In this document: positions 1-29,389 of the stretch, in pieces
How the letters are laid out: each line of letters starts with the position of its first letter
Position numbering within the stretch: the stretch's first letter is position 1
Assembly: GCA_021771915.1 (NCBI GenBank)
Contig: JAETNY010000007.1
Location: 1 to 64,000 of the forward strand
DNA length: 64,000 nucleotides
Direction: 5' to 3'
Source: Bacillota bacterium
Lineage (GTDB): Bacteria; Bacillota; Dehalobacteriia; UBA4068; UBA4997
Made by a program: the position numbers and the translations under genes
Notes under the pieces: generated by a model
Told to the model about the DNA's origin: nothing
Databases searched by the model: none
What the model saw: only the letters and a program-made list of their open reading frames with translations

Positions 1-1362
1 ATTATATGACTTATATAAATATTTGTCTGAATTTACATCAACACCTATTAATACAAAAAAATGTTCTATTGCTCTTCGTAAATATTTTACCCCATCGTTA
101 TCTGCTATAGTTAAAGAATTAATATATTGCAACACCCTAAAATGATCTATTTCATCAGATAAATATATTTTGTAATCTTCTATTAATATAGTTAAAATTT
201 CATTTGCTATTTTCTTTCTTAAAGCGATATCTTTACCAGATTCAGTAAATAACAATTTAGTAATTAAACAAAATACATTCATCGAATCATATTTTATTGG
301 CGTAACATCTGGTGCATCAAAATTTACATTTGGTAATAATACTTGTATTTCGTTTAATAAATCATAAAGCAAATGCCATCGTGGCGCAACAATACATATT
401 TCGTTCTCTGCAACCCCTTGAGATAATTCTTTAGTTATAATATTGGCAATTGCTTTATACAAATCAACATTATTTATAAAATTATTATAATACAAAGATC
501 CGCTCTCATCCTTTATATTTGAAACAGAATATATCGGCATAGTTTTCAATTGAAAATTTGAATAAAAATCAATCAATCGTTGCGTTGTTCGATAGCATCC
601 ATCTAATCTTCTCTCAGTAAATACCAAGTCAAATTCCTCTTGTAATTCATAACATGATTTAGCAATTCCCCCCAAATTCCCATATATGGCTTGATCTGTA
701 TCTCCCACAAAAATTACTTGTATATTTTTATTTAATTTTACAATATTGCTAAGTATTTTATATTGCAAATTATTTGTATCTTGATATTCATCAACTAAAA
801 TACTTCTTATTATTCCAGCAATATTTTCAGAAATAAATCTATTTTTACCCACCAACTCATAAGATATTTCTAAAATACTATCAAAATCTATTTCTCTTTC
901 GGTCAATAATCGTTTCTTATATCTAGTTCTTATTTCTATAAAACTTAAAGGATCTTTATATCCAACCTCAATATTAAGCTGTTGCGCAATTTCTTTTGTA
1001 TACATCTCAGTAACATACTCATCTATAATATGATAACCTTGTTTCAAACGATTATGATACATTGTATAGGGTCTAATAATAAATTTAAGACAAAATTGAT
1101 GTATAGTACCAACCCATACCTTATCCTGCTCAACATTCATCTTTTCTAATCTTTCCCTAATTTCATCTGCCGCTCTGTTTGTATAGGTTATTGCAATATT
1201 AAGCTTTCGAGAATTGTTATTTTTTTCAACGATATATGCTAACTTATAGGTTAAGGTTCTTGTCTTTCCACTTCCAGGACAAGCTGTAAGTAAAATATTG
1301 CCTTCATCCATACAAATTTGTCTTTGTTGTGGATTTAAATCATCTAAAAGCGTATTTGTCAT
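1..1362 (-). CDS. gajB: UvrD/Rep-type superfamily 1 helicase, GajB-like, C-terminus off the window
   Basis: My own reading of the minus strand gives an open frame from the ATG at 1362 to the window edge, so the gene is partial; it is absent from the ORF track because no stop lies in the window. It starts MTNTLLDDLNPQQRQIC and shows the SF1 Q-motif, Walker A (ACPGSGKTRTLTYKLAYI), motif Ia (ITYTNRAADEIRERL), GTIHQFC, the DEYQDTN Walker B and GDTDQAIYG motif III. It would unwind DNA 3'-5' using ATP. Its ATG shares one base with the stop of the OLD nuclease gene upstream (TAATG), which indicates translational coupling. An OLD nuclease followed by UvrD is the arrangement of Gabija (GajA/GajB); assignment to that system is inference from gene pairing and domains. 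Confidence 0.85.
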   Translation of the reverse strand, partial: MTNTLLDDLNPQQRQICMDEGNILLTACPGSGKTRTLTYKLAYIVEKNNNSRKLNIAITYTNRAADEIRERLEKMNVEQDKVWVGTIHQFCLKFIIRPYTMYHNRLKQGYHIIDEYVTEMYTKEIAQQLNIEVGYKDPLSFIEIRTRYKKRLLTEREIDFDSILEISYELVGKNRFISENIAGIIRSILVDEYQDTNNLQYKILSNIVKLNKNIQVIFVGDTDQAIYGNLGGIAKSCYELQEEFDLVFTERRLDGCYRTTQRLIDFYSNFQLKTMPIYSVSNIKDESGSLYYNNFINNVDLYKAIANIITKELSQGVAENEICIVAPRWHLLYDLLNEIQVLLPNVNFDAPDVTPIKYDSMNVFCLITKLLFTESGKDIALRKKIANEILTILIEDYKIYLSDEIDHFRVLQYINSLTIADNDGVKYLRRAIEHFFVLIGVDVNSDKYLYKSYN

Positions 1363-3533
1363 TATTCACACCAATCTACACAATATTTATCTACTTCTAC
1401 CAAAAACTTTGATAAAACATCCTTTTCGTATGTTTTTCTGAATTTTTTTATACATTCTTTTTTTGTTTTTACGTCTTTAATATTCTTTATTCTTTGCTCT
1501 AAATCTTTTTTCTTCTCATCAGTATACCTAGATAACGAATATTCAACCATCCCAAAAACGATATTCAATGAAATTACTTCTCTGCTAGCAAACGCAATAG
1601 CCGATAAAATATATTGAGGAATATTAGCATTTTTATCAATATAACTTGCAAGAACAGTAGCATACCAACCCTTTTTCATTTTATCAGCTATTGTCAAAAT
1701 TGTATTGGCACATTCAGCATCTGTACCAGATTTTATTTTCTCTTTATGACTTTGTTTTTTATTATCTTGACGATACTCACTATCTATTATTTCATTAATA
1801 TAACCAGCATTCGCTCTATTCTCGACTAACGCAAAATCAATCTCTAACGTATGCGGCGCATAAAATATTTCAACCCAATTATTATCACCATATAATCTAT
1901 CTAGTTTATCTCTTCTGCTTTTGCCTCTCTTTTCTGCTTCCAGTTTATAAAAATGACTTCTTTCATCTACAATTTGTACATCTTCATCCGTAACAATAGC
2001 ACATGACCTTCGTATTCTTTCCTCACCAAAAAGACTTGCAATATATTCAAATGACACACTTCCTACATTAACCAAACCAATACCCAACTCATCTAATGAA
2101 ACGCCAAATGCCATTTTAGTAATATTAGGTATTAATATTTCTTCTCCATCACCTTCTACTAAAATAACACCTTTTGAAAACAACAAAACAGACCGTTTAG
2201 CATCCAAATAACGTTCAATACAAGTCGACAATGCTAGATTCTTTAATTCAAGATATTGCCGTCCAAAATCATCAAGACTTCTGTTTGGTTGTAATGCAAC
2301 ACTTTTATTATTAATTGATTTAAGCACATTAACACTATGTATAGCTGATACCTCTGCCAAATGTGTTGAATGAGTAGTAGTTATAATCTGTGTATAATCC
2401 TTTGTAATTTTCAACTTATCAAATAATGTTCTTTGAATATGAGTATGTATATGTGCCTCCGGTTCTTCAATTATCATAATATTAATCAGTTCTCGTGTTC
2501 TATTTATCTCATATTCCACAATTTTCAAAGCCATATAAATCATATTTAAATGGCCTAGTCCCAATGATTCAATATCATTCTGCTTTGATGTTTTCATAAA
2601 TAAATATCGTGATAATGAATTTATATCATCTTTTAACCCTGATTCTAAAATAATATCAGGCGAATAAACCATACCAATCATATCTAACAATTTATTATTA
2701 ATTCTTTGACCAACTAATTCAACCTGTTCGACTTCTGAAATAGATTGATTCAGTTGTACAATTTCATTTTTTATTTTATCAATTTCAGATTCTTTTATCA
2801 ACGACTCAACTGATTCCATAATTCGCCGAATAGGGTTTTTAGGTTTTCGTAATTCATTTGCTACATCACGCAAGGCATCAATGAACACTACTGAAATATG
2901 GTCTTGCACATCGGAAATATTAAGTTTACATCCCAAAATTCCGTCATCATCTTTATCTGGATCATTACATTTTCCATTTTCTAAATCTCCAACAATTTTG
3001 GTATACACTTCTTCATTTGTAAAATCAGTTTGAGAACGACTTGTATAATAAAACTCATAATCTGATAACTTTATCTTATTTCTTTCATTTTCAAAATCAA
3101 CAGGATCTGTAATTTCACTTAATTTTTTTCGAATATTTTTTTGAGGGCGAATAAAAAGTGAAATAACACCAATATTTTCACCACCACTTTTTATATATGC
3201 TTTCAAAAAATCTTCATTTTCTTTATCCGGTACAATTTCCGCACAAACCTCTGTTTGTTTATCCTCAGAAGTTATATTGCCAAATATTGCTGAAATGATA
3301 ATCCAATGCCCTTTCCAATTATTAAGTGAACCTGAAAAATCACTTTCCTTCAATCTTTTTGTATTATAATAATATGTATCATCCAACAACATTCTTAATG
3401 CTGTCATAGCATTAGATTTTCCAGAATCATTCTCACCAATAATTGTATTAACACCCTCATTAAAAGATAAACGCATTGCACTAATATTTTTATAATTAAC
3501 AATTTGTAAATAATTTAAAAACACAATATTCAC
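1362..3533 (-). CDS. gajA: OLD-family ATPase with TOPRIM nuclease domain, GajA-like
   Basis: Predicted ATP-sensing DNA endonuclease. The N-terminal ABC-type ATPase has Walker A GENDSGKS (about residues 33-40), Walker B with MIIEEPEAHIHTH (about 355) and an H-loop TTHSTHLAEVS. The C-terminal TOPRIM domain shows the glutamate motif GVILVEGDGEE (about 456) and an acidic IVTDEDVQ motif. In Gabija the nuclease is released when nucleotides are depleted and acts with the UvrD-like GajB; here such a helicase starts on the last base of the stop codon. At 723 aa it is longer than the Bacillus GajA I know of (roughly 580 aa), the extra length lying mainly in the region between the ATPase halves. Sequence is AT-rich like the rest of the island. 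A non-Gabija OLD class 2 protein is the alternative. Confidence 0.85.
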   Translation of the reverse strand: MNIVFLNYLQIVNYKNISAMRLSFNEGVNTIIGENDSGKSNAMTALRMLLDDTYYYNTKRLKESDFSGSLNNWKGHWIIISAIFGNITSEDKQTEVCAEIVPDKENEDFLKAYIKSGGENIGVISLFIRPQKNIRKKLSEITDPVDFENERNKIKLSDYEFYYTSRSQTDFTNEEVYTKIVGDLENGKCNDPDKDDDGILGCKLNISDVQDHISVVFIDALRDVANELRKPKNPIRRIMESVESLIKESEIDKIKNEIVQLNQSISEVEQVELVGQRINNKLLDMIGMVYSPDIILESGLKDDINSLSRYLFMKTSKQNDIESLGLGHLNMIYMALKIVEYEINRTRELINIMIIEEPEAHIHTHIQRTLFDKLKITKDYTQIITTTHSTHLAEVSAIHSVNVLKSINNKSVALQPNRSLDDFGRQYLELKNLALSTCIERYLDAKRSVLLFSKGVILVEGDGEEILIPNITKMAFGVSLDELGIGLVNVGSVSFEYIASLFGEERIRRSCAIVTDEDVQIVDERSHFYKLEAEKRGKSRRDKLDRLYGDNNWVEIFYAPHTLEIDFALVENRANAGYINEIIDSEYRQDNKKQSHKEKIKSGTDAECANTILTIADKMKKGWYATVLASYIDKNANIPQYILSAIAFASREVISLNIVFGMVEYSLSRYTDEKKKDLEQRIKNIKDVKTKKECIKKFRKTYEKDVLSKFLVEVDKYCVDWCE

Positions 3534-3545
3534 CTCATAATATAG

Positions 3546-6500
3546 TTATCTTATCACAAAACATTTCTCCACCAATTCACTTAACCTACCCTGCTTTGCT
3601 GCCTCCGCAGCATCAGCCTGCGCAAAATTATGTGTGGCATTTTTCAATTCCTCATCAAAACCTAAAATATAATTTGTCGCAATCAAATAAATAATGCGTG
3701 TCGGAGCCAGACCATAAACCTGTTTTTGCAAAATATGCTCAATCCGCTCTCTATCATCAGGAAAGGCCGCTTTCAAGCCCTCGCTGCGATACAAACGCTT
3801 AACAATCTCTGTTATATAAAGCCCAGATTTCATATACAAATCAGCAAATGTTTTATCAGGACTATCAAAGCAGCCCGGATTGTTGTCCGCCAACTGGTCA
3901 ACCATCATCGAAACAACCCAGCGAGGCGTAAATATCTGGTTAGTTTTTTGCGGCGGAATATAATCAAAAATATCTTCCGTCTGGGTTTCATCAAAATAAT
4001 TGGCCAACTGCTGTTTTTTATGCAAAAATTCTTCCAGCGCATCATCAAAAACAACTTCGTCAAAAAGATGACCGGCAAAATATTCAATCTCACCTGTATC
4101 TGGATTAAGATACTCACCACCATCTCGCAAAAAGCGAAAATCTTCCAAAGAAATACCCGTTACTTCCCGAAAAGCGTCCGGCTCTACATATTTATCAAAA
4201 TTAGCCAGCGTTAATTTTTCATCACCATAGGCCATAATAAAACTGGGAATTGTGCGAGAAAAACCACGCAAATGAGCCCGCATCTCATCTTCAACCGAGC
4301 GTTTTTCCTGTTCGGCCTTATGACGCTCAACCTGTTCAATAATCTCCTGCGGCTTGTCCGCAATAGTCTTTTGAACTGAATCCTTTACATTTTGCACCAA
4401 ATCTGCCAAAGCAGCTTCCATATTTATGTTATACTCAGCCTCCGCTTTTTGAACCTCATGCTCTGTTTCAGCCGCTTGCCTTTTGCGCTCTAATTCTGCT
4501 TGCGCAATTCTATTCTGTTGCTGGTAATCACTATGAATCTTCTGTAAATTATTATCAATTTCTCGCTCTGTTTGATTTATCAGCCGATTAGCAAAGCCTC
4601 TTTTTAAATCGTAATCAGCAATAACAGGCGCTAATATTTTTTCCTTAATGTCGCTTTTTACTGTTTCAGCAATATTATTGATACTGGCCTGTACTGCATT
4701 TACGCTGTTATTATCCGACAGCTTTTCAACCTGCTCCTGCACATTCTGGCTTATATTATCATATATTTTCGCCCCAAACAAACCCTGCGTCTTGCCAATC
4801 ACTATTTCATTGTCAATCAGAACACCACCATTTTCATCTAATTCTATGGTGTTCATACCAGCCAAACTATTTTGCTTAGGCTTTCTGATTTCTTCCTGCG
4901 CCGGCGTCAGCTTCTCCACAATCTCTCGCACAACAGCCGGTGCACCAAATATGTTGCTGATATTTTGAAACAGGAAATTGCACATAAACCCCCGGCGCAC
5001 AACCTCCTGACTTTTCAGGCGGCGAGGAATGGAAAGTACAGCAGCAGCGTCCAGCTTAACCATTTTGCCGTTTTCATCTTCACCAAGAACTGGTAAGAAG
5101 TTAAGCAGATTTTTAATATTTTCCCGGCGTTCATCTGTTGTGCCACGCCCAGAGGCAGTTTTGCCAGACAAATTATTGGCAAACTCATCAAATATAATAA
5201 GCGTTCTGGCCGGGTCAAAATCAAACACATAGGCAGTTTCTTTACGCAGGCGTTTATTGTCCATGGTTAAAACGCAAGGGTTTTGCGCCCGAAAAGCCGC
5301 CTGCATATAAGCGGCAGGGCTTTTCATATTACAAAGCATCAACACGCCGCTCCATTCGGGGATGGTAACGCCCACCGTCAACTGACCAACTGTTAAGGTG
5401 ATAGTTTTGTCGTTTTCAGCAATAGCCTTTTTCACCCGGTCATAGGCTTTAGTTACCTGCTCGTCATCATCCCGGCCATCACCAACTGCTAAAACAACTT
5501 CATAATCCCCAAAAACCTCATCATCTTTAAGCAGCTTTTTCAATGCCTTAGCGCTGGCAACTCGCTCCAGATACCACATAGTATGGCAAAGTTCCTGCCG
5601 CAGCTCCGGCGTGGAAAATGGATACTTCTCCTGCGTACTTAAAGCGTGCAAAAACTTTTTCACTTCCGCTTCATGAATAAACTTCTGGCTTTCATTGGTG
5701 GCAAAAAATTCATTCAAATCAAAGAAATAATCAACCGTATCTTCATCGGATATTTGAATACCCTTTGCCGCCTTTTCCTGAATCATTTCAGAAAGCTGAT
5801 ATGTAAACAACTCTAAACGAGGCAGCCGTTCATAGGGATTGTAATCGTTGGAACTCCATTTTTCTTTATAGCTTTGCTCGTCGGCATATGACCAGTTAAA
5901 AATCTGCTCTTTGGAAAACTGTTCGCTGGCCAGCGCCTTAAACGGCGTGCCGGATAGATACAGAGTTTTTGAGCGTTTTATTTTTTGAAAGGCTCGCTCC
6001 GTTTTTATGGTGTCCACGCCCTCATGGGATTCGTCCACAATAAGCAGGTCAAATTGCAAATCGGCAAGCCATTTTCGCTTGTCCGTAATATCCCTTTGTC
6101 CACCAAAATGAATGGAGCCTTTTAAGCCCTGCAAAGACTCAAAAGCAATTACCTTTCGGGGATTATTTTTATTGCTTAAATATTCCTCTCTGGAAATAAC
6201 TCCCGGTTTGCCTTTTACAGCGTCATTATCTGAAACAAAAGAGTATTTGCCACGCCAGCCAACAAATTTATAAAAATCGTCAGCCCAGGCATTTGCCACA
6301 CTTGGCCGATTGGTAACTACCAAAACCTTGCTTAAACCCATACGCTGAATTAAATCATAGGCAGTTAAAGTTTTGCCAAAGCGTGGTTTGGCATTCCAAA
6401 GAAACTCAAGATTATCATCTTGGGTATTTTCAAAATACGTCTTAGTCATATCAACAGCCATTTGTTGTTCTTTGCGCAATTCATATATGTACTGTTCAGC

Positions 6501-6872
6501 AGGAATCTGGTTTGTACGCATACAAAATTCATTAAAGTACATTAAAGAAACAGGGCCATTTAAACGAAACCATTCTGTCGAACCGTCAAAACAATTACGC
6601 TCAACATTGTACACATTTTGCAAAAAATCGTGAAACGCATTATCATTAAAATATTCGCCTGAATTATCTTTGAACATCGCATTATCCTGCCACAACAGGT
6701 TAGGACGAATCCCGGCAGTATGTGTTTGCTGTCTTATCCGTTGCGCCACCGTTTGCTTTTCTGTATAGCCAATTTTAGTCCAACCGTCCAAATAGGTTAC
6801 GCCCGGCGCATTATAGGCATAAATCATCGGCACAACTCGTGTAAAGGGCTTTATTTTGGCAATTTCGCTCAT
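3546..6872 (-). CDS. Restriction subunit: GIY-YIG-type N-terminus, SF2 helicase, partial methylase-like C-terminus
   Basis: Domain order as read: residues 12-100 resemble the T5orf172/GIY-YIG nuclease fold (IYAYNAPGV, KIGYTEKQTVAQRIRQQ); about 160-620 is a DEAD/DEAH helicase with Walker A PRFGKTLTAYDL, motif II VDESHEG, motif III LSGTPFKAL and motif VI MQAAFRAQNP; about 770-860 is a charged coiled coil (QAELERKRQAAETE). The last about 120 residues carry an IFTPRWVVSMMVDQL motif and ADLYMKSGLYITEIVKRLY, matching the N-terminal half of an adenine methylase, but there is no NPPY. It would translocate on and cut unmethylated DNA. Its ATG directly abuts the stop of the methylase gene, so the two form a restriction-modification operon. 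GC is higher than in the flanking Gabija-like genes. Confidence 0.85.
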   Translation of the reverse strand: MSEIAKIKPFTRVVPMIYAYNAPGVTYLDGWTKIGYTEKQTVAQRIRQQTHTAGIRPNLLWQDNAMFKDNSGEYFNDNAFHDFLQNVYNVERNCFDGSTEWFRLNGPVSLMYFNEFCMRTNQIPAEQYIYELRKEQQMAVDMTKTYFENTQDDNLEFLWNAKPRFGKTLTAYDLIQRMGLSKVLVVTNRPSVANAWADDFYKFVGWRGKYSFVSDNDAVKGKPGVISREEYLSNKNNPRKVIAFESLQGLKGSIHFGGQRDITDKRKWLADLQFDLLIVDESHEGVDTIKTERAFQKIKRSKTLYLSGTPFKALASEQFSKEQIFNWSYADEQSYKEKWSSNDYNPYERLPRLELFTYQLSEMIQEKAAKGIQISDEDTVDYFFDLNEFFATNESQKFIHEAEVKKFLHALSTQEKYPFSTPELRQELCHTMWYLERVASAKALKKLLKDDEVFGDYEVVLAVGDGRDDDEQVTKAYDRVKKAIAENDKTITLTVGQLTVGVTIPEWSGVLMLCNMKSPAAYMQAAFRAQNPCVLTMDNKRLRKETAYVFDFDPARTLIIFDEFANNLSGKTASGRGTTDERRENIKNLLNFLPVLGEDENGKMVKLDAAAVLSIPRRLKSQEVVRRGFMCNFLFQNISNIFGAPAVVREIVEKLTPAQEEIRKPKQNSLAGMNTIELDENGGVLIDNEIVIGKTQGLFGAKIYDNISQNVQEQVEKLSDNNSVNAVQASINNIAETVKSDIKEKILAPVIADYDLKRGFANRLINQTEREIDNNLQKIHSDYQQQNRIAQAELERKRQAAETEHEVQKAEAEYNINMEAALADLVQNVKDSVQKTIADKPQEIIEQVERHKAEQEKRSVEDEMRAHLRGFSRTIPSFIMAYGDEKLTLANFDKYVEPDAFREVTGISLEDFRFLRDGGEYLNPDTGEIEYFAGHLFDEVVFDDALEEFLHKKQQLANYFDETQTEDIFDYIPPQKTNQIFTPRWVVSMMVDQLADNNPGCFDSPDKTFADLYMKSGLYITEIVKRLYRSEGLKAAFPDDRERIEHILQKQVYGLAPTRIIYLIATNYILGFDEELKNATHNFAQADAAEAAKQGRLSELVEKCFVIR

Positions 6873-8798
6873 TTATTCCATCTCCTTTACATGAGTTTCG
6901 ATAAACTCAATTTCCTTTTCATCTAAACTATATTTAGCATATAGCTGCTTGTCGATTTCAGATATTGATTTTGTCCAGTCAATATCTGAATTAGAAGTAA
7001 AATCTTGCAAAGGAACATATCTCCATTTTGGCGCAGGATTATGCTGTGTTATCTTTAAAATACCCAACATAACACGACAAAACTTACTCTTGATATATTT
7101 AAGCAAATTTTCTACCTCAATAGAAGTTTGAAAATTACCAATAGAAATAAAGGTCTGGGTATGCCCGATTAAGGGCTGCCCGATTAAGGGCTGCCCGATT
7201 AAGGGTGTAGATAAAACCTCGCCCAAAGCGCCAGAACCATTAGCAGCAGGAACAAATACCTTATAAGCAGTAAAATTATCTGGAGCCTTAACATATTCCT
7301 TTTTTATCCATTTTGCCGTTCTATTGCCTTTAATCAAACCAAGAATTTGCACATAATCGCCATCAGCAGGCTTTTGTGAAAAGAAAATAGCATTATCCAA
7401 ATTTTCCAGCACACTGGTCTTAAAATCATATTTATGACCTTTACTCAGCAATCCCTCAATATTTGGATTCTCCTTGTGCATTAAATCAGTAAAACGATAG
7501 GACTCGGAAGCGTAAATAATAGAATTTAAACTTTGATGTGCAGTAGCATTTACCTTATTGGCAATACCTCTTAACTCGTCAAATACAATGAAATGTTCTA
7601 TTGCACCAAAATTTTGCTTGCTATCACGATATGTAATAGCGACGCCGCCTTTTATATCCGTATTAGCGAAAACCTCTGAACTATTGGGTTTATAATATAG
7701 CACTTTCAAATGCTCATCATTCAGCATTTTTTCATTCCACGCTTTAGGAGTGCTGCCAGCATTAAAAAGAAATCTGGCAGGGTGAATAAGTTCCACACAA
7801 TCAGCAATTTTATATGCTTCGTCCATAAACAGATTATAAATCGGCGGCGCATAGGTTTTATTTTCCCCAATAGTTTCATCTTGATAAGGCGGATTGCCAA
7901 TAATAAAATCAAACTTCATTGCCTTTTGCTCCTTTCGCTGCAATGCCAAAAACTCCAAACTGCGCCCCCCACGCCAATTATAAATGCGGCAACAGGGCTG
8001 GTGGTTTTCTTCCTCATCAGCTATGCCCCAGCCAAACAATTCCGCCATACTTACCTGCAAAGAATTGTTTTCGGCTTTTGCATAAGGCACAGTCCCGGTC
8101 AGCCCGTCCATTTGCCAAAGATTCCAACAGATTATGTTGGCAATTTTTTTATATTCAGCAAGTGTAGGTTTACGCTGCCAACGCTCAGTAAGATACTCCT
8201 CAAAGGTCATCAGCAAATTAACACGGGCAATCAGCAAATTATCGCCCTGAAATTCATAACCATAGGCAGCCTGAAAAGCCCTATAAACCCACTTAAGCCA
8301 TTCCGCTTCATTTTGGGCATTTTCATTAACCAAACGCAGCTTTCTATCCAAAATTCCGATACGTTCAGCTATCGGTATCATCTCGCCGCTTTCCACATCA
8401 TAGCGGCTCACCAGATACGGAGCCTCGCCGCAGGTTATCTCCAAGCGCCGGGAGTCCACATAATCCTGCCAGCTTTTGGTTTTGTCCCAAACTTCATCAG
8501 CATAATCATTCATCTTTCGGCAAACCCACAGTGGCGTAAAGACCTCGGCATGTTGCCTTGTCCTTACCGACTGCTGTTCCTGGGCCTTTCTGGCTCTGGT
8601 TTTAATAACCCCAGCATTTAAACCAGTAATCACTTCTGGCAAAATCTCCTCATTACGGCCATATTTTGCCCCAAAAGAGGAGTAAGCGTCAGTCGCCCAC
8701 ATAGTATTGCGCTTTGTCGTTTTATCAATCAATATTCTGTCTAAAATCCCTAAAGAATTTATTTTCAGAATATCGTCCTGAATATTGATAATCACCAA
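6873..8798 (-). CDS. Eco57I-type N6-adenine DNA methyltransferase
   Basis: Modification subunit of the restriction system. Motif X-like EVFTPLWVCRKMND (about residue 107), a motif I region LEITCGEAPYLVSRY, a motif GDNLLIARVNLLMTF and the catalytic motif IV FIIGNPPYQ (about 300) are all visible, so the enzyme looks complete, transferring methyl from SAM to adenine N6. The last about 150 residues should be the target-recognition part and contain three in-frame PLIGQ-type repeats (about 530-545). The GTG start at 8798 is preceded by AAGGGGAAG; the next in-frame methionine is MWATDAY. It is the first gene of the two-gene operon with the helicase/nuclease. Family is clear, target sequence unknown. 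Confidence 0.88.
   Translation of the reverse strand: MVIINIQDDILKINSLGILDRILIDKTTKRNTMWATDAYSSFGAKYGRNEEILPEVITGLNAGVIKTRARKAQEQQSVRTRQHAEVFTPLWVCRKMNDYADEVWDKTKSWQDYVDSRRLEITCGEAPYLVSRYDVESGEMIPIAERIGILDRKLRLVNENAQNEAEWLKWVYRAFQAAYGYEFQGDNLLIARVNLLMTFEEYLTERWQRKPTLAEYKKIANIICWNLWQMDGLTGTVPYAKAENNSLQVSMAELFGWGIADEEENHQPCCRIYNWRGGRSLEFLALQRKEQKAMKFDFIIGNPPYQDETIGENKTYAPPIYNLFMDEAYKIADCVELIHPARFLFNAGSTPKAWNEKMLNDEHLKVLYYKPNSSEVFANTDIKGGVAITYRDSKQNFGAIEHFIVFDELRGIANKVNATAHQSLNSIIYASESYRFTDLMHKENPNIEGLLSKGHKYDFKTSVLENLDNAIFFSQKPADGDYVQILGLIKGNRTAKWIKKEYVKAPDNFTAYKVFVPAANGSGALGEVLSTPLIGQPLIGQPLIGHTQTFISIGNFQTSIEVENLLKYIKSKFCRVMLGILKITQHNPAPKWRYVPLQDFTSNSDIDWTKSISEIDKQLYAKYSLDEKEIEFIETHVKEME
7162..7206 (-). 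repeat. Three tandem 15-bp units inside the methylase gene
   Basis: The unit tgcccgattaagggc occurs twice perfectly and a third time with the last base changed. It is a multiple of three and encodes PLIGQ-PLIGQ-PLIGH on the minus strand, so slippage would add or remove five residues without a frameshift. Confidence 0.95.
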
Positions 8799-12568: not shown

Positions 12569-14977
12569 CTATTCATTATTCTGTGCCGTATCAAAGCCTA
12601 TCTCGAATGAAGACTTAAATTTTTGCAAGCTTTTTCGTGCCAGATTCATAGCTTTTACGGTTTCTTCTTCCCTTTTAATTTCAGCTTTTATCTCTTTGGC
12701 CTCTTTTTCCTTAGCCTCACCAGCCCGCAATCTTAAATCAACCAGGCCCTTTTCGATTTCGCTAATTTTTTGCACATATTGCTCATAAATGCTATTAGAA
12801 TATTCAATATCTTTTTCATCATTAAGAAATATTTCTCTGACAGCAACAAGCAGTTTGGCTGATTGCATAATAATAGTTTTTTTACCAGCCACACCAGCCA
12901 AACCCACAGCGCCGCCCACGCCAGCGCCAACTCCCAATCCAAGAACAGCGCCGCCGCCAACTATTACCAATCCTCCAGCAAACATTCCCCCACCTCCAGC
13001 AGCAATCGCTCCGCCGCCCAAATAAGCAAGACAAGCACTTGTTAAAGCCGCACCATGCAAACCTACAAAATTTGAACCCACCAAGGCAACTGCTATTGAC
13101 GGCGCAAACACTCCAGCAGTCGCAACAATAACAACAGAAACAACCGCTGTAACGGCCAAACCTGTTACCACATTTTTCAAAACCTCATTCAATTCTCCAA
13201 GCACATTGTCATAGCACTTTCGCAATCGCTTAATATATCCTTTAGGACAGTATTCTTCACAAAAAATATCGTCTAAATATTTATCGCCAAGATCTTTATT
13301 ATAACCGCTAATAATGTTTTGCAGATCCTTATACATTTTACTTGGAACATCATTGCCCTTTTTATCCTTTTCAAGAGTTAGTGTGTAATAGGGTTCAAAG
13401 AGCATTGCTTCCAGCATGACAAGCCGAAACCAAGTGTTCTGTGGATTATTTTCCTTAATTTTGGCAATAAGTTCCTTTTCATTTTGATACCAATGCAGTT
13501 CCGCACCTTCAATCTGCATAAAGCTTGCAAATCCTCTGGTCATATTAACTTTCCATTCTGCAAGCCAACGCTTTTTCAAACTCTTTATACGTTCATTACT
13601 AATTAACACTTTAGTATTCCTTAAATCATTTAATGTCTTAAAATAATCAATATTATATAAAATCTCTGTTTGTTCCATAGTTAAACAAAATTTATCCATA
13701 TTTATACTATTATTCATATCATCACCTATTCGCTTATAAATGTTATTATCTTCCACCAAAAAAGCAAATTGTTTAATATTTTCGTACATCTGCTTAATTT
13801 TTTTAATATTTCTGGTTTTCAAACACCAGCCAACATCTTCGCTAAAAGCAACAGCAAAACGTCCAACACCTATGTAATTAACTGCAACCCAATATTTTTG
13901 TGAAATAACCGCCTCGCCTATATCAAGCGTTGTAAAAACACCAGTTGCTATCAAAAGCATTCTGGAAATCGTTGGGTTGTTTGTCGGAACTACATTTGCC
14001 AATTCGATTTTTTTTATATTCATAAGCGTTTGAACATTACGAGTTTGCATTTCCATTGCCAAGCGACGAATAAAATAAAATGCTCGCACAATACATTCAT
14101 TAGCAACAACAGGAACTGCCTGCTGTCCCAGTTCAATCCCGATACCAAGTTCACCCCGCAAATCAAACCTCAAAACTGTGTCTTTTATAATGGCTCCAGA
14201 TTCATCACGCTGGGCCAGCAATGTTCCGTTAAACAGCTTAGACAAAAATATCGACAAAGAATTACCGCCAATCTTAATATTCTTAAAAAAAGGCAGTACT
14301 GATAATTCCTTAGCTAATGACAATATCGGGCCTGGAATGCCGGTTCCGCCGCTCTGCCCTACCGTACTGCTTGAACCAGCCATATCGCTAACAAGATGAA
14401 AGAACCAAGTAATTGTGCCAAACAATATTTTAGAAGGAATATCACGGCCAATAAAAGCCTTGCTTTTTTCAGGTACCTCTGCCACCATAAAACAACCATT
14501 TACATCTGTGCCATAAGATTTATATGTAAATTGTGTTAACAGCGAAAACATCAAACCAACTATTGTCGGGTGATGTGCAAAATCTCGAAGATGATGTTGA
14601 AGTCCACCACCAAAAACAGGAGTATTTCCATCACTGGGAATGGGAAATTTATTCTCCAAAAATCTAACGGCAGACTCCAAATCATCGCCTTGATAACCAA
14701 GCATTTTGGCCGTCTTTTTAACAAATCCATCAACCTGTTTGCTTGCTACATCCCGTCCTTGTTTCAAACTAAAATCGCCAACCCATAAAATGTCAAGCAA
14801 AGCGCATAATATTCCGCTGCCAACGGCTACTAAATAGTCATATCTATCAGCCTTACTTGACAGCAAGTCAATTTGGCCGTCCAAATCATATAAAATCCTA
14901 TCAATGTCATATTCACTGTTTGCAGCCATTTTATTATCTGACATAAGTTCTACTTGCAGTATTTTCTCTTTTTCCAT
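12569..14977 (-). CDS. Large unrecognised protein with glycine-zipper membrane block
   Basis: An 802-aa protein that I cannot place in a named family. The first 440 residues are mixed alpha/beta with hydrophobic patches (VGSGILCALLDILWVGDF; GLMFSLLTQFTY; ILFGTITWFFHLVSDM). About residues 590-690 are a continuous hydrophobic stretch dominated by Gly and Ala (AIAAGGGGMFAGGLVIVGGG, then GLGVGAGVGGAVGLAG), a glycine-zipper pattern seen in pore-forming or membrane-associated proteins. The last 100 residues form a Lys/Glu-rich coiled coil (EAKEKEAKEIKAEIKREEE). It is the outermost gene of the defence-like island. A membrane-acting effector is one reading; no experimental or family support is available to me. 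Confidence 0.75.
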   Translation of the reverse strand: MEKEKILQVELMSDNKMAANSEYDIDRILYDLDGQIDLLSSKADRYDYLVAVGSGILCALLDILWVGDFSLKQGRDVASKQVDGFVKKTAKMLGYQGDDLESAVRFLENKFPIPSDGNTPVFGGGLQHHLRDFAHHPTIVGLMFSLLTQFTYKSYGTDVNGCFMVAEVPEKSKAFIGRDIPSKILFGTITWFFHLVSDMAGSSSTVGQSGGTGIPGPILSLAKELSVLPFFKNIKIGGNSLSIFLSKLFNGTLLAQRDESGAIIKDTVLRFDLRGELGIGIELGQQAVPVVANECIVRAFYFIRRLAMEMQTRNVQTLMNIKKIELANVVPTNNPTISRMLLIATGVFTTLDIGEAVISQKYWVAVNYIGVGRFAVAFSEDVGWCLKTRNIKKIKQMYENIKQFAFLVEDNNIYKRIGDDMNNSINMDKFCLTMEQTEILYNIDYFKTLNDLRNTKVLISNERIKSLKKRWLAEWKVNMTRGFASFMQIEGAELHWYQNEKELIAKIKENNPQNTWFRLVMLEAMLFEPYYTLTLEKDKKGNDVPSKMYKDLQNIISGYNKDLGDKYLDDIFCEEYCPKGYIKRLRKCYDNVLGELNEVLKNVVTGLAVTAVVSVVIVATAGVFAPSIAVALVGSNFVGLHGAALTSACLAYLGGGAIAAGGGGMFAGGLVIVGGGAVLGLGVGAGVGGAVGLAGVAGKKTIIMQSAKLLVAVREIFLNDEKDIEYSNSIYEQYVQKISEIEKGLVDLRLRAGEAKEKEAKEIKAEIKREEETVKAMNLARKSLQKFKSSFEIGFDTAQNNE

Positions 14978-15995: not shown

Positions 15996-17156
15996 TCAAC
16001 CATTAAATTGTAATTTAACAACCAACAGAACAAGAACCGCCAGAAAACAGATATTTCCCAGCGTAAACAATGCAATATATTTACCTTTACTCTGCGGAAT
16101 TTCCTTAGCAACCTGCTTATAAGAAATTAAACTTGCCATGGAAGCAATCAGAGTACCAAGCCCACCCAGATTTGTGCCGATAATAAGGCCGGCAAAATTC
16201 TCCGTAAAACCAGACAAAAGCAGCGCCGCCGGCACATTACTAATAATCTGGCTGGCAATTATAGCGGTATAAATTTCCCGACTGGCAATAATATTCTGCA
16301 AAAACTCACAAAAAACAGGAATACTGCCAACATTACCAATAAAAATAAAAAAGCCTGCAAATGTAAAAAGCAACGAATAATCAACCTGTTTAAATACCTG
16401 CCTGTCAGTTACAAATATAACAATGCAGACAAGTGCCAAAACCAGCAGCCAAGGCAAAATATGCCCCACCGTCAGCAAACAAAGCAAAAATAACGCCAGA
16501 TAAACTATTAACGGATACATGATTTCTTTCTGACGCAGAGAATTGCAGACGGTTGAATTATGTCTAAAACGCAGCGACAGCGCGCCAATTTTACCCAACA
16601 GCATACTGCAAGCCAATAGCATAACAAATGCCAAAAGCGCATAAGGCAACATCAACAGCATAAATTTGCTAACGGAAAGACCGGCTTTGCCGTAAAGATA
16701 CAAATTTTGCGGATTACCTATGGGCGTCAGCATGCTGCCAAGATTAGCCGCAATCGTCTGCATCACAACCACCGGCAGCAGCAGGCGTTTTCTGAGCTTT
16801 GTTCCCAACAGATTAAAAACTGTAAATGTAAAGGGCACAAAGGTAATCAGCGCCACATCGTTGGTAATCAACATGCTGGAGAAGAAACACAGCAAAACCA
16901 AGGTCAGAAAAAGCCCCCGGCCATTTTTAACACGCAGCAAAAGCTTTCTGGCCGTCCATTGAAATACGCCAATTTTCTGCAAACCGGCCATAACAATCAT
17001 CAGGCAAAACAATATCGCTAAAGTTCTGTAATCAATATATTGCCAATAGCTGCTGTTTGGCGGCACAATAAACATCGAGAATATTGCTAAAATAACAGCA
17101 ACACATAAAACCGTTTCTTTTTTGAAAAAATCAATTATTCTATTCATAAAATGCAT
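15996..17156 (-). CDS. SLC13/ArsB-like anion permease (YbiR type)
   Basis: A 386-aa integral membrane protein with about ten hydrophobic helices (for example TVLCVAVILAIFSMFIVPP, RTLAILFCLMIVMAGLQ, LLFTFAGFFIFIGNVG). The conserved TPIGNPQNLYLYG and SNVPAALLLSG loops are those of the ion-transporter superfamily that includes ArsB, CitT and YbiR. Substrate cannot be read from sequence. Its start overlaps the end of the radical SAM gene by 17 bases; MNRIIDFF nine bases further in is an alternative start. Inner membrane. Confidence 0.82.
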   Translation of the reverse strand: MHFMNRIIDFFKKETVLCVAVILAIFSMFIVPPNSSYWQYIDYRTLAILFCLMIVMAGLQKIGVFQWTARKLLLRVKNGRGLFLTLVLLCFFSSMLITNDVALITFVPFTFTVFNLLGTKLRKRLLLPVVVMQTIAANLGSMLTPIGNPQNLYLYGKAGLSVSKFMLLMLPYALLAFVMLLACSMLLGKIGALSLRFRHNSTVCNSLRQKEIMYPLIVYLALFLLCLLTVGHILPWLLVLALVCIVIFVTDRQVFKQVDYSLLFTFAGFFIFIGNVGSIPVFCEFLQNIIASREIYTAIIASQIISNVPAALLLSGFTENFAGLIIGTNLGGLGTLIASMASLISYKQVAKEIPQSKGKYIALFTLGNICFLAVLVLLVVKLQFNG

Positions 17157-26517: not shown

Positions 26518-27696
26518 ATGCAGGAATTAGCCTTAAAATATGGCTGCAATCCCAATCAGAAGCCGGCACGTATTTTTACCAGCCAGGGCGAACTACCCAT
26601 CACTATTTTGAACGGTAACCCCGGCTATATCAATCTGCTGGACGCTTTCAACAGCTGGCAGTTGGTTCGGGAGTTAAAAGCGGCTTGCGGTCTGCCGGCG
26701 GCCGCCTCATTCAAACACGTCAGCCCGGCCGGAGCGGCCGTGGGTGTGCCGCTGGACGAAACACTGAAACAGATTTATTTTGTGGAGGGTCTGGAATTAT
26801 CGCCTATTGCTACGGCCTATGTTCGTGCGCGCGGAGCCGACCGTATGTCGTCTTATGGTGATTTTGCCGCCCTTTCTGACGAGTGTGATGAAGCCACCGC
26901 CCGTTTTCTGCTGCGCGAGGTTTCCGACGGCATTATTGCGCCCAGTTATTCCCCGGCGGCGCTGGAGATTTTGCGCCAAAAGCGCAAAGGAACCTATCTG
27001 GTCATTCAGATTGACCCTGATTATCAGCCTCAGCCTTTGGAGTTAAAGCAGGTTTTTGGTATCAGCTTTGAGCAGCAACGCAATGATGTGCTGATTAATG
27101 CTGATTTGTTAAACGCCTGCCCTCGCCCCACCCAAAACCAGGAAATACCGGAAGACGCTTTGCGTGATTTGCTGATTGCTCTGATTACTTTAAAATATAC
27201 GCAGTCTAATTCCGTCTGCTATGCCAAAGGCGGTCAGGCTATTGGTATTGGCGCCGGGCAGCAGTCGCGTATTCACTGTACAAGACTGGCCGGCAATAAG
27301 GCTGATATCTGGTTTTTGCGTCAGCACCCCAAGGTTTTGAATCTTCCTTTTAAAGCGGATATTCGCCGCCCAGACCGCGATAATACGATTGACGTTTATA
27401 TTTCCGAGGAATGGGAGGACGTGTTGGCCGACGGTGTTTGGCAACATTTCTTCACCAGCCGGCCGGAGCCTTTAAGCCATGAGGAAAAGCGTGAATGGCT
27501 GAAGCAGCTTGATGGCGTTGCGCTTGGTTCCGACGCTTTCTTCCCCTTTGGCGATAACATTGAGCGCGCGCATAAAAGCGGCGTGACTTATATCGCCCAA
27601 ACCGGCGGCTCGGTACGCGATGATAATGTGATTGAAACCTGCGATAAATATGGTATTGCCATGGCCTTTACCGGCGTGCGTTTGTTCCACCATTAA
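26518..27696 (+). CDS. Stand-alone AICAR formyltransferase
   Basis: 392 aa. Transfers the formyl group of 10-formyl-THF to AICAR in purine synthesis, the last transfer step before ring closure. The catalytic-type segment SFKHVSPAGAAVGVP matches the KHxxPxG motif of the transformylase half of PurH; GGQAIGIGAGQQSRIHC and FFPFGDNIERAHKSGVTYI are further conserved blocks. The IMP cyclohydrolase half is absent, so cyclisation must be done by another protein. AGAGAGGATTTTTTAT precedes the ATG. Confidence 0.88.
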   Translation: MQELALKYGCNPNQKPARIFTSQGELPITILNGNPGYINLLDAFNSWQLVRELKAACGLPAAASFKHVSPAGAAVGVPLDETLKQIYFVEGLELSPIATAYVRARGADRMSSYGDFAALSDECDEATARFLLREVSDGIIAPSYSPAALEILRQKRKGTYLVIQIDPDYQPQPLELKQVFGISFEQQRNDVLINADLLNACPRPTQNQEIPEDALRDLLIALITLKYTQSNSVCYAKGGQAIGIGAGQQSRIHCTRLAGNKADIWFLRQHPKVLNLPFKADIRRPDRDNTIDVYISEEWEDVLADGVWQHFFTSRPEPLSHEEKREWLKQLDGVALGSDAFFPFGDNIERAHKSGVTYIAQTGGSVRDDNVIETCDKYGIAMAFTGVRLFHH

Positions 27697-27751: not shown

Positions 27752-27966
27752 GTTTTTTGGTGGTATAAAAATATGAAAAAAAGAAATGTTTGGAAAACAT
27801 TTACACAACCGAATTTATCAAACAGAAAGGGTTTGGCGACCGTTTGGAGGGAAGCCATAAAGCCGCCAAACCAAAAAGGGATTAAGTAAAAAAGAAAGTT
27901 AAAAGGGGAAAAACTAAAAGAATGTTGAAAAACGCATTACATCTCAGGCAGATGCTTAAAACAATA

Positions 27967-28021
27967 AAACCCATCAAACACCGATGGGAAAACAAAAAAC
28001 GGCTCAACAGGTGAACCGCGG
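27967..28021 (-). terminator. Tandem terminators of the riboswitch RNA
   Basis: Minus strand: CGGTTCA-CCTGT-TGAGCCG then TTTTTTGTTTT, and immediately after CCCATC-loop-GATGGG then TTTTATTG. Both fit rho-independent terminators. Together they end the transcript before it could reach the transformylase gene. Confidence 0.75.
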
Positions 28022-28091
28022 ATAAAACATCAATGACGAAATAAAAGCGCAAGCTGATATTTCCTGCCAAAGCCTCCCACCCTAAAGGCAA

Positions 28092-28285
28092 AAGCAACAT
28101 TTACGGCAAATATCCTGACTTATGACTCTTTCTCCCAGAAACCTTCTCAAGCCAAAGCAAAAAACGGCTCAATGGTGAACATTCTGTTCGTCGTCAAATA
28201 CAGTAGAGTTTGGACTGCGCCGGATTCTCACCGGCTTCCTTTTTAAGCTGTTAACATAAGTTAATTCAGCACCGTAAACTTTCAA
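28092..28285 (-). ncRNA. Cobalamin riboswitch
   Basis: Minus strand matches the conserved core of the cobalamin aptamer: GGTGCTGAATT, GCTTAAAAAGGAAGCCGGTG, AGAATCCGGCGCAGTCC, CTACTGTA, CACCATTGAGCC and AGTCAGGATATTTGCCG. A consensus promoter lies just upstream. No gene follows on this strand; the frame of the 72-aa track ORF runs across both terminators and is not convincing. It probably controls a short RNA. Confidence 0.85.
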
Positions 28286-28302
28286 TATTCAGTTATACTC
28301 AT

Positions 28303-28331
28303 ATTATACACAGAAGATTGGGGATTGTCAA
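28303..28331 (-). promoter_or_regulatory. Consensus promoter of the riboswitch RNA
   Basis: TTGACA, 17 bases, TATAAT on the minus strand, an exact sigma-70-type match placed to start transcription just before the cobalamin aptamer. Confidence 0.85.
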
Positions 28332-28372: not shown

Positions 28373-28894
28373 CTACATTTTTTCCACAGGCTGACCGGCC
28401 ACCCCGGCCACCAGATGCGCAGGAATTTCCGGCATCAATTCATGATTGATTACCTGCAAAAATTTGGTGATAACAGCCAACTGCTCTGCTGGAAAATATT
28501 CCCGGATACGCTCCATCACCCGATTAACATAGGTACGGCTTAAATTATAATATTCATAATATTTATCTGTAACCATCAGATGATATTCGCGCTTATCATC
28601 AGCTGAACGCACCTTTTTTATATAGCCCTTGCTAATCAGACTATTAATCTTATAAGCTGCATTAGGCGGTGATATTTTAATAAATGAGGCAAATTCATTA
28701 ACCGTCGGATTATTCAAAGCATGAATAGTTTCCACACAAAGCGTTTCCACCGTCGTCAAAGAAGCTTCCCGTTCATGCAGCTGTGAGAACATCTCCTGAT
28801 AAAAATGAATTTTAAATTTAGCATAAATTTCGGCAAAATTTGCCTCCAGCTTGTTATCAAACTGCTTATTTTCCGCTATCATCTCTATGCGCAC
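28373..28894 (-). CDS. MarR-family regulator, FabT-like
   Basis: 173 aa. Winged helix with VNEFASFIKISPPNAAYKIN as recognition helix region and KKVRSADDKREYHLMVTDK as wing. It is the last gene of the fatty-acid operon (58 bases after fabZ), and MarR-type FabT represses fab operons in other Firmicutes, so it probably binds the repeats in front of acpP; that link is inference. A long-chain acyl-ACP corepressor would be expected by analogy with FabT. Confidence 0.8.
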   Translation of the reverse strand: MRIEMIAENKQFDNKLEANFAEIYAKFKIHFYQEMFSQLHEREASLTTVETLCVETIHALNNPTVNEFASFIKISPPNAAYKINSLISKGYIKKVRSADDKREYHLMVTDKYYEYYNLSRTYVNRVMERIREYFPAEQLAVITKFLQVINHELMPEIPAHLVAGVAGQPVEKM

Positions 28895-28951: not shown

Positions 28952-29389
28952 TTATTCGCCAATCGCAAAGGAAAGTTCTGCCATCGCCGCCACTTTGCCG
29001 TTTACCTTAGCCACGCCCTTGCCAATACCCAACGGCCCCCGGCGATTAATCAACTCACACTCTAACTCCAGAATATCGCCCGGCTCCACTTTAGCTTTAA
29101 AGCGAGCGTTTTTCACGCCGCCAAAAAACACCAGCTGACCAGCCGCCTCCGGGTCGGTCAGGGTTGCTACCGCGCCCACCTGCGCCAGCGCCTCCAAAAT
29201 CAACACGCCAGGCATAACATGCCGCCCCGGAAAATGACCGCAAAACTGATGCTCATTAGCTGAAACGCATTTATAACCCTTGGCCCATTTACCCGGCTCA
29301 TAATCGGTTATTCTATCCACCAGCAAAAATGGATAACGATGCGGCAGAATTTTTTCAATCTCATTAGAATTTAACTGCATTTTCTTCAT
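28952..29389 (-). CDS. fabZ: 3-hydroxyacyl-ACP dehydratase
   Basis: 145 aa. Dehydrates 3-hydroxyacyl-ACP in each elongation cycle. HRYPFLLVDRITDYEPG near the start and GHFPGRHVMPGVLILEALAQ with the catalytic His and Glu are intact. Follows fabF by 19 bases. No FabM or FabN isomerase is seen in the operon, so how unsaturated acids are made is not explained here. Confidence 0.94.
   Translation of the reverse strand: MKKMQLNSNEIEKILPHRYPFLLVDRITDYEPGKWAKGYKCVSANEHQFCGHFPGRHVMPGVLILEALAQVGAVATLTDPEAAGQLVFFGGVKNARFKAKVEPGDILELECELINRRGPLGIGKGVAKVNGKVAAMAELSFAIGE

Follow-up and report, generated by a model that had tools for sequence, protein, structure and literature searches.

A conserved RNA gene headed by a cobalamin aptamer, probably a B12-controlled regulatory RNA, in relatives of Candidatus Avidehalobacter

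We find that a 64,000-nucleotide stretch of DNA from a gut bacterium of the Bacillota (the window) carries on its minus strand a conserved RNA gene headed by a B12 aptamer. The RNA is probably a B12-controlled regulatory RNA. We consider it reasonably likely that the gene is an autonomous B12-sensing unit, with a B12-dependent switch at two terminators (T1 and T2) and a longer read-through form. To our knowledge, few riboswitches control a noncoding RNA. Many gut bacteria must take up B12, and a gene of this kind would offer a testable system where B12 sets the level of a regulatory RNA. The genome of the window (2.3 Mb in 47 contigs) contains seven cobalamin aptamers.

The unit starts with a sigma-70 promoter (28303-28331, minus strand) that matches the consensus at 12 of 12 positions, with TTGACA at 28331-28326, a 17-nucleotide spacer and TATAAT at 28308-28303; transcription is expected to start near 28296. 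The 5′ leader, AUAACUGAAUAUUGAAA (28280-28296, minus strand), lies outside the aptamer core, has a mean identity of 98% across eight species and is complementary to positions 27915-27930. Performing the covariance search that a preliminary description of this DNA had proposed, we obtained a match to Rfam Cobalamin (RF00174) at 28088-28291 on the minus strand, which covers the full model (1-189) and scores 91.7 bits (E 1.9e-21) against a gathering score of 31.5 bits. The aptamer shows compensatory changes in P1 and in a peripheral stem, and it presumably binds a cobalamin in the cell.

On the same strand, the unit lies behind the fatty-acid synthesis operon, with fabZ (28952-29389) and then a MarR-family gene (28373-28894) preceding the promoter. 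The downstream neighbour is a convergent purH-type gene (AICARFT/IMPCHase; 26518-27696, plus strand), and no coding gene lies on the same strand between it and the RNA unit. The promoter, the aptamer, the two terminators and the lack of a same-strand gene had all been claimed in the preliminary description, and each is borne out here. The sole same-strand ORF (27882-28100, 72 aa) is without a Pfam match. Elsewhere in the window, at 1362-8798 on the minus strand, three large genes resemble a defence island, judging by their sequence; they code for an OLD-like ATPase, a helicase-like protein of very large size and a methylase-like protein.

The RNA unit is present in eight of the nine genomes of the genus (relatives of Candidatus Avidehalobacter). 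Besides the window's own copy, seven genomes carry it as 76-98% identical DNA; the ninth genome is 81% complete and gave a short fragment match only. In all eight genomes with the unit, fabZ-marR lies directly upstream on the same strand, and the promoter keeps its perfect match and 17-nucleotide spacing although the spacers have diverged; the MarR protein of the distant species is 58-65% identical. A pattern search over 43 genomes of the class found the combination of aptamer and P13 hairpin (see below) confined to this genus, and the RNA unit had no match in phage records. The genes behind the unit vary. The next gene is a convergent purH in the window's genome and in its sister G008, relBE-like genes followed by a convergent purH in G004 and G005, an S-layer-type gene about 1 kb away in G002, cspA with a promoter of its own behind the RNA in G001 and G006, and a gene that reads as ferritin-like in G007. 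The next gene is convergent in four of the eight species, and the other four differ among themselves. Since the unit stays fixed in place in eight species while its downstream neighbours change, the best reading is that it forms an independent gene; the changing downstream gene makes it unlikely to be a leader in decay or a switch acting in cis on one gene. The preliminary description of an orphan cobalamin riboswitch whose own promoter yields a noncoding RNA is thus well supported by the eight genomes, whereas its word "controls" follows from the anatomy.

Directly behind P1, we find a two-tier hairpin with a G-rich loop (28064-28097, minus strand) that is conserved in the eight orthologs and that we read as P13/L13 after a published model (PMC10653944). 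Its inner part is GCCUUUAGGGUGGGAGGC (28072-28089), and its loop, AGGGUGGG, is nearly invariant. The inner stem changes in a compensatory manner, from GCC/GGC to GUC/GAC in G005 and to GCU/AGC in G002. By its place and its G-rich loop, the hairpin fits the P13/L13 of transcriptional corrinoid riboswitches. The L5 region reads UCC (CCC in G004 and G005) and could pair with GGG/GGA of L13, both being short, highly conserved segments. The stem-loop GGUGNGAAUCC was considered as L5 and rejected in the light of the published model (PMC10653944). We also rejected the G-rich loop as a Shine-Dalgarno element, for neither a start codon nor a reading frame is conserved behind it.

Behind P13 follow a middle hairpin (28038-28063, minus strand), whose sequence is replaced with its pairing kept in G006, G001 and G007, and the two terminators listed by the terminator scan. 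T1 (27993-28019, minus strand) has its stem at 28019-27999 followed by six U, and this U tract is invariant in all eight species. T2 (27966-27988, minus strand; stem 27988-27970) keeps its stem though the sequence differs between lineages, and its U tract is weak in G004 and G007. By species, P13 and T1 are 53, 47, 48, 46, 43, 43 and 37 nt apart, with differences that are not multiples of three. In P13, the middle hairpin, T1 and T2 alike, pairing is maintained through sequence change. The aptamer stretch at 28158-28180 (GTTCACCATTGAGCCGTTTTTTG) closely resembles T1 at 27993-28016 (GTTCACCTGTTGAGCCGTTTTTTG) in the window's genome and G008; the resemblance is absent in the other species, and local copying is possible.

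In every species, T1 and T2 each have a 5′ arm complementary to the 3′ strand of P13, GGGUGGGAG. The GGGUGGG of this strand makes 7 of 7 pairs with the T1 arm (UUCACCU or CUCACCU) in all orthologs, and the strand keeps seven to eight pairs with T2 arms that differ by lineage (CCCAUC, UUCCAUCC, UUCCACCU, CCCACCC and CCCGCCC). Compared with 121 terminators from a sample of the window's genome, the T2 arms rank in the best 1-4% by pairing with the P13 strand and the T1 arms in the best 6-10%. In the metE riboswitch of Priestia megaterium, which has been dissected by mutation, the ligand stabilises P13 via an L5-L13 kissing loop and thereby permits the terminator, and the antiterminator consists of the 3′ side of P13 and the 5′ arm of the terminator (PMC10653944). 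Together, the complementarity and this precedent strongly suggest a switch of the same design. With cobalamin bound, the L5-L13 contact would hold P13, T1 (and T2) would form, and transcription would stop at about 305-330 nt. Without a ligand, the P13 3′ strand would be free to pair with the T1 5′ arm. The polymerase is past T1 when T2 is made, so the same strand could then pair with the T2 5′ arm and disarm both terminators in turn. In the literature searched, we found no description of one antiterminator for two successive terminators. Without B12, read-through would extend the RNA to as much as about 520 nt. We infer from this anatomy the switch, the successive antitermination and the long form, as well as any action in trans; both T1 and T2 being terminators, the RNA may always end there.

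An end of the unit at T2 is probably too short, for conserved sequence runs to about 27868 and possibly to 27776. Behind T2 lies a 3′ segment (27915-27930, minus strand) complementary to the 5′ leader, reading UUUCAACAUUCUUUUA here and UUUCAAMAUUCGGUUA in most relatives. It is 88% identical in the eight species, its surroundings 33-48%. The first 16 nt of the RNA form 13 of 16 pairs with this segment in the window and 14-15 of 16 elsewhere, and RNAalifold draws the helix unprompted. Among 200 shuffles, the duplex energy is reached by 0 to 3 in the seven relatives and by 12 for the window's own copy, where the complementarity does not beat shuffles. One internal mismatch of the helix is filled in G002; the 5′ arm hardly varies, and two-sided changes are absent. 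The window reads CTTTTA at 27915-27920 where the 98% identical G008 and most relatives read CGGTTA, and two pairs of the helix are lost in this genome alone. Elsewhere in the genomes, the pair of leader and segment motifs occurs no oftener than a control pattern. The inverted repeat that the two motifs make was also considered as a transcription-factor site or the end of a mobile element; both were rejected, as it is confined to this locus and keeps a constant syntenic place.

Next to this segment, a CU-rich tract beginning UUUUUCCCCUUUUAACUUUCUUUUUU (27868-27913, minus strand) keeps its polypyrimidine composition in all eight species and may serve as a target-pairing region. A candidate terminator T3 (AAAUGUUU-UCC-AAACAUUU followed by seven U; 27776-27802, minus strand) was read directly; it is weak and A+U-rich, below the G+C threshold of the terminator scanner. 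Its counterpart in G006 is a G+C-rich hairpin with a T run, as it is, by reading, in G001 and G007; T3 is weak in G004 and G005 as in the window. Searching Rfam with the 3′ part yielded sub-threshold chance matches only. A 5′ leader complementary to a conserved segment behind T2 indicates that the read-through RNA probably matters, and a read-through RNA of about 520 nt is plausible from the sequence. In this long form, pairing of the 3′ segment with the 5′ leader would close the molecule, and the CU-rich tract could pair with purine-rich ribosome-binding sites.

An RNA made under B12 shortage would most simply spare B12, in the way that RyhB and FsrA are sparing RNAs for iron, with the difference that the metabolite sensor would be built into the RNA. 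In its full form, this idea is a long shot: B12 depletion would give the long form by way of the one strand that disarms two terminators in turn, and the CU-rich tract would cover the ribosome-binding sites of enzymes that depend on B12, methylmalonyl-CoA mutase (mutA/mutB) among them. Ranking start sites by ungapped helices with the CU-rich tract, we find mutA at 14 of 354 in the window's genome (with background start sites drawn from about half a megabase of it), 2 of 131 in G006, 80 of 140 in G002 and 1 of 20 in G007; the ranks of mutB are 19 of 354, 15 of 131, 6 of 140 and 2 of 20, and both sets are to be read with the caveat that CU tracts favour purine-rich start sites. This pairing with methylmalonyl-CoA mutase start sites is suggestive and serves as a lead only. 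The enzyme is encoded in seven of the nine genomes, in one of them by a partial gene at the edge of a contig; G004 and G005 lack it but keep the RNA and the CU-rich tract. The link to a B12-dependent propionate pathway drawn in the preliminary description is therefore weak: the mutase occurs in the window's genome and most relatives, but two species keep the RNA without the enzyme. Its suggested search for complementarity to B12 genes left mutA/mutB as the lead; MetH-type genes occur in most genomes of the genus, but the metH start site is not a hit for the tract, and metE is absent from the genus and so cannot be a target. Free duplex energies over whole tracts gave no discrimination among targets.

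Related RNAs occur at other loci. A shorter, AdoCbl-type aptamer, with the same P13 hairpin and a pair of terminators behind it, is found at C46 and C3 of the window's genome, at C11 of G005 and, diverged, at C55 of G004; the loci are L038 16448-15990 (minus strand), L039 8007-7587 (minus), L041 around 7661 (minus) and L102 around 13160-13760 (plus). The C46 copy scores just below the cut-off of RF01482. About 400 nt of conserved, apparently structured sequence follow. Three of the four copies lead into no same-strand gene and face convergent genes; the exception is the C3 copy, with a btuFCD-like operon about 490 nt downstream on the same strand. No match to the paralogous RNA was found in plasmid records. 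On L038, tandem and divergent cobalamin aptamers (668-1131 and 16449-16898) surround an operon that encodes large surface proteins and transporters; this region is nearly identical in G005, which suggests recent transfer.

We weighed four other explanations of the unit at the window. The aptamer with T1/T2 could be a B12-dependent 3′ terminator of the fab-marR operon that sets the end of a long fab mRNA, the separate promoter being secondary. The constant position of fabZ-marR directly upstream on the same strand is consistent with this, as is the terminator scan, which lists no minus-strand terminator between marR and the aptamer, and the LysRS riboswitch of Listeria, which lies between two genes and also ends transcription of the upstream gene, is a precedent that senses lysine rather than B12 (PMC8079631). 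However, a pure 3′ terminator would not need the perfect promoter found between marR and the aptamer in all eight genomes, and a link between B12 and fatty-acid synthesis is not obvious; we regard this explanation as unlikely. We give still less weight to the short, B12-bound RNA ended at T1/T2 as the active regulator (SreA-like), with the 3′ segment of the long form only hiding the 5′ leader. The leader is the most conserved part of the RNA, and in the long form it would be covered by the 3′ segment, but a search for targets of the leader found none, its matches elsewhere in the genomes being at the level of a control pattern.

The unit could also be an ordinary cis-acting leader that regulates a more distant downstream gene, or whose target gene has given way to a different one in each species. 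This reading gains something from the C3 paralog, since its position before the btuFCD-like operon shows that the design can serve a gene. The convergent or differing next genes and the separate cspA promoter in G001 and G006 argue against it, and synteny largely refutes this explanation, which we hold to be very unlikely. Least probable of all is that a former riboswitch is decaying here and has lost its function. Nothing regulated follows, and the 3′ segment of the window has two pairs fewer than that of G008; against this, eight species keep a perfect promoter, an aptamer core and compensatory stems. The autonomous, B12-sensing RNA gene remains our preferred reading.

Among known systems, EutX of Enterococcus faecalis and Rli55 of Listeria are noncoding RNAs headed by a cobalamin aptamer with its own promoter, and B12 shortens them (PMC5821096). 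The unit described here shares the B12 aptamer, its own promoter and the lack of a coding gene. Their RNAs, however, carry an ANTAR dual hairpin that sequesters EutV; performing the ANTAR search proposed in the preliminary description, we found the 3′ part to carry no pair of ANTAR hairpins with A1/G4 hexaloops in any of the eight species, and a single such hexaloop, in P13, in five of them. Most genomes of the genus encode one ANTAR protein, G002 two. In the window's genome (L188 7402-8004, minus strand) and in G006, the ANTAR gene adjoins glutamine synthetase/glutamate synthase-type genes rather than eut genes.

AspocR of Listeria is likewise a noncoding RNA behind a B12 riboswitch; B12 stops its transcription early, at about 230 nt instead of 1,400 nt, and the RNA is antisense to pocR (PMC8079631). 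Here, there is no coding overlap and no conserved convergent gene: the predicted RNA reaches at most to about 27776, the purH-type gene ends at 27696, and other species have no or a different convergent gene. The preliminary analogy to EutX, Rli55 and AspocR thus stands for a B12 aptamer before a noncoding RNA and fails for the dual hairpin and the convergent coding overlap. The metE riboswitch of P. megaterium is similar in its aptamer, its P13 and the match of the P13 3′ strand to a terminator 5′ arm, but it has a single terminator and regulates a coding gene. Here, two successive terminators match one P13 strand, and none of the eight genomes has a conserved regulated gene downstream. A genus-wide case without an ANTAR sponge or antisense overlap would make metabolite-gated sRNAs more varied than EutX and AspocR suggest.
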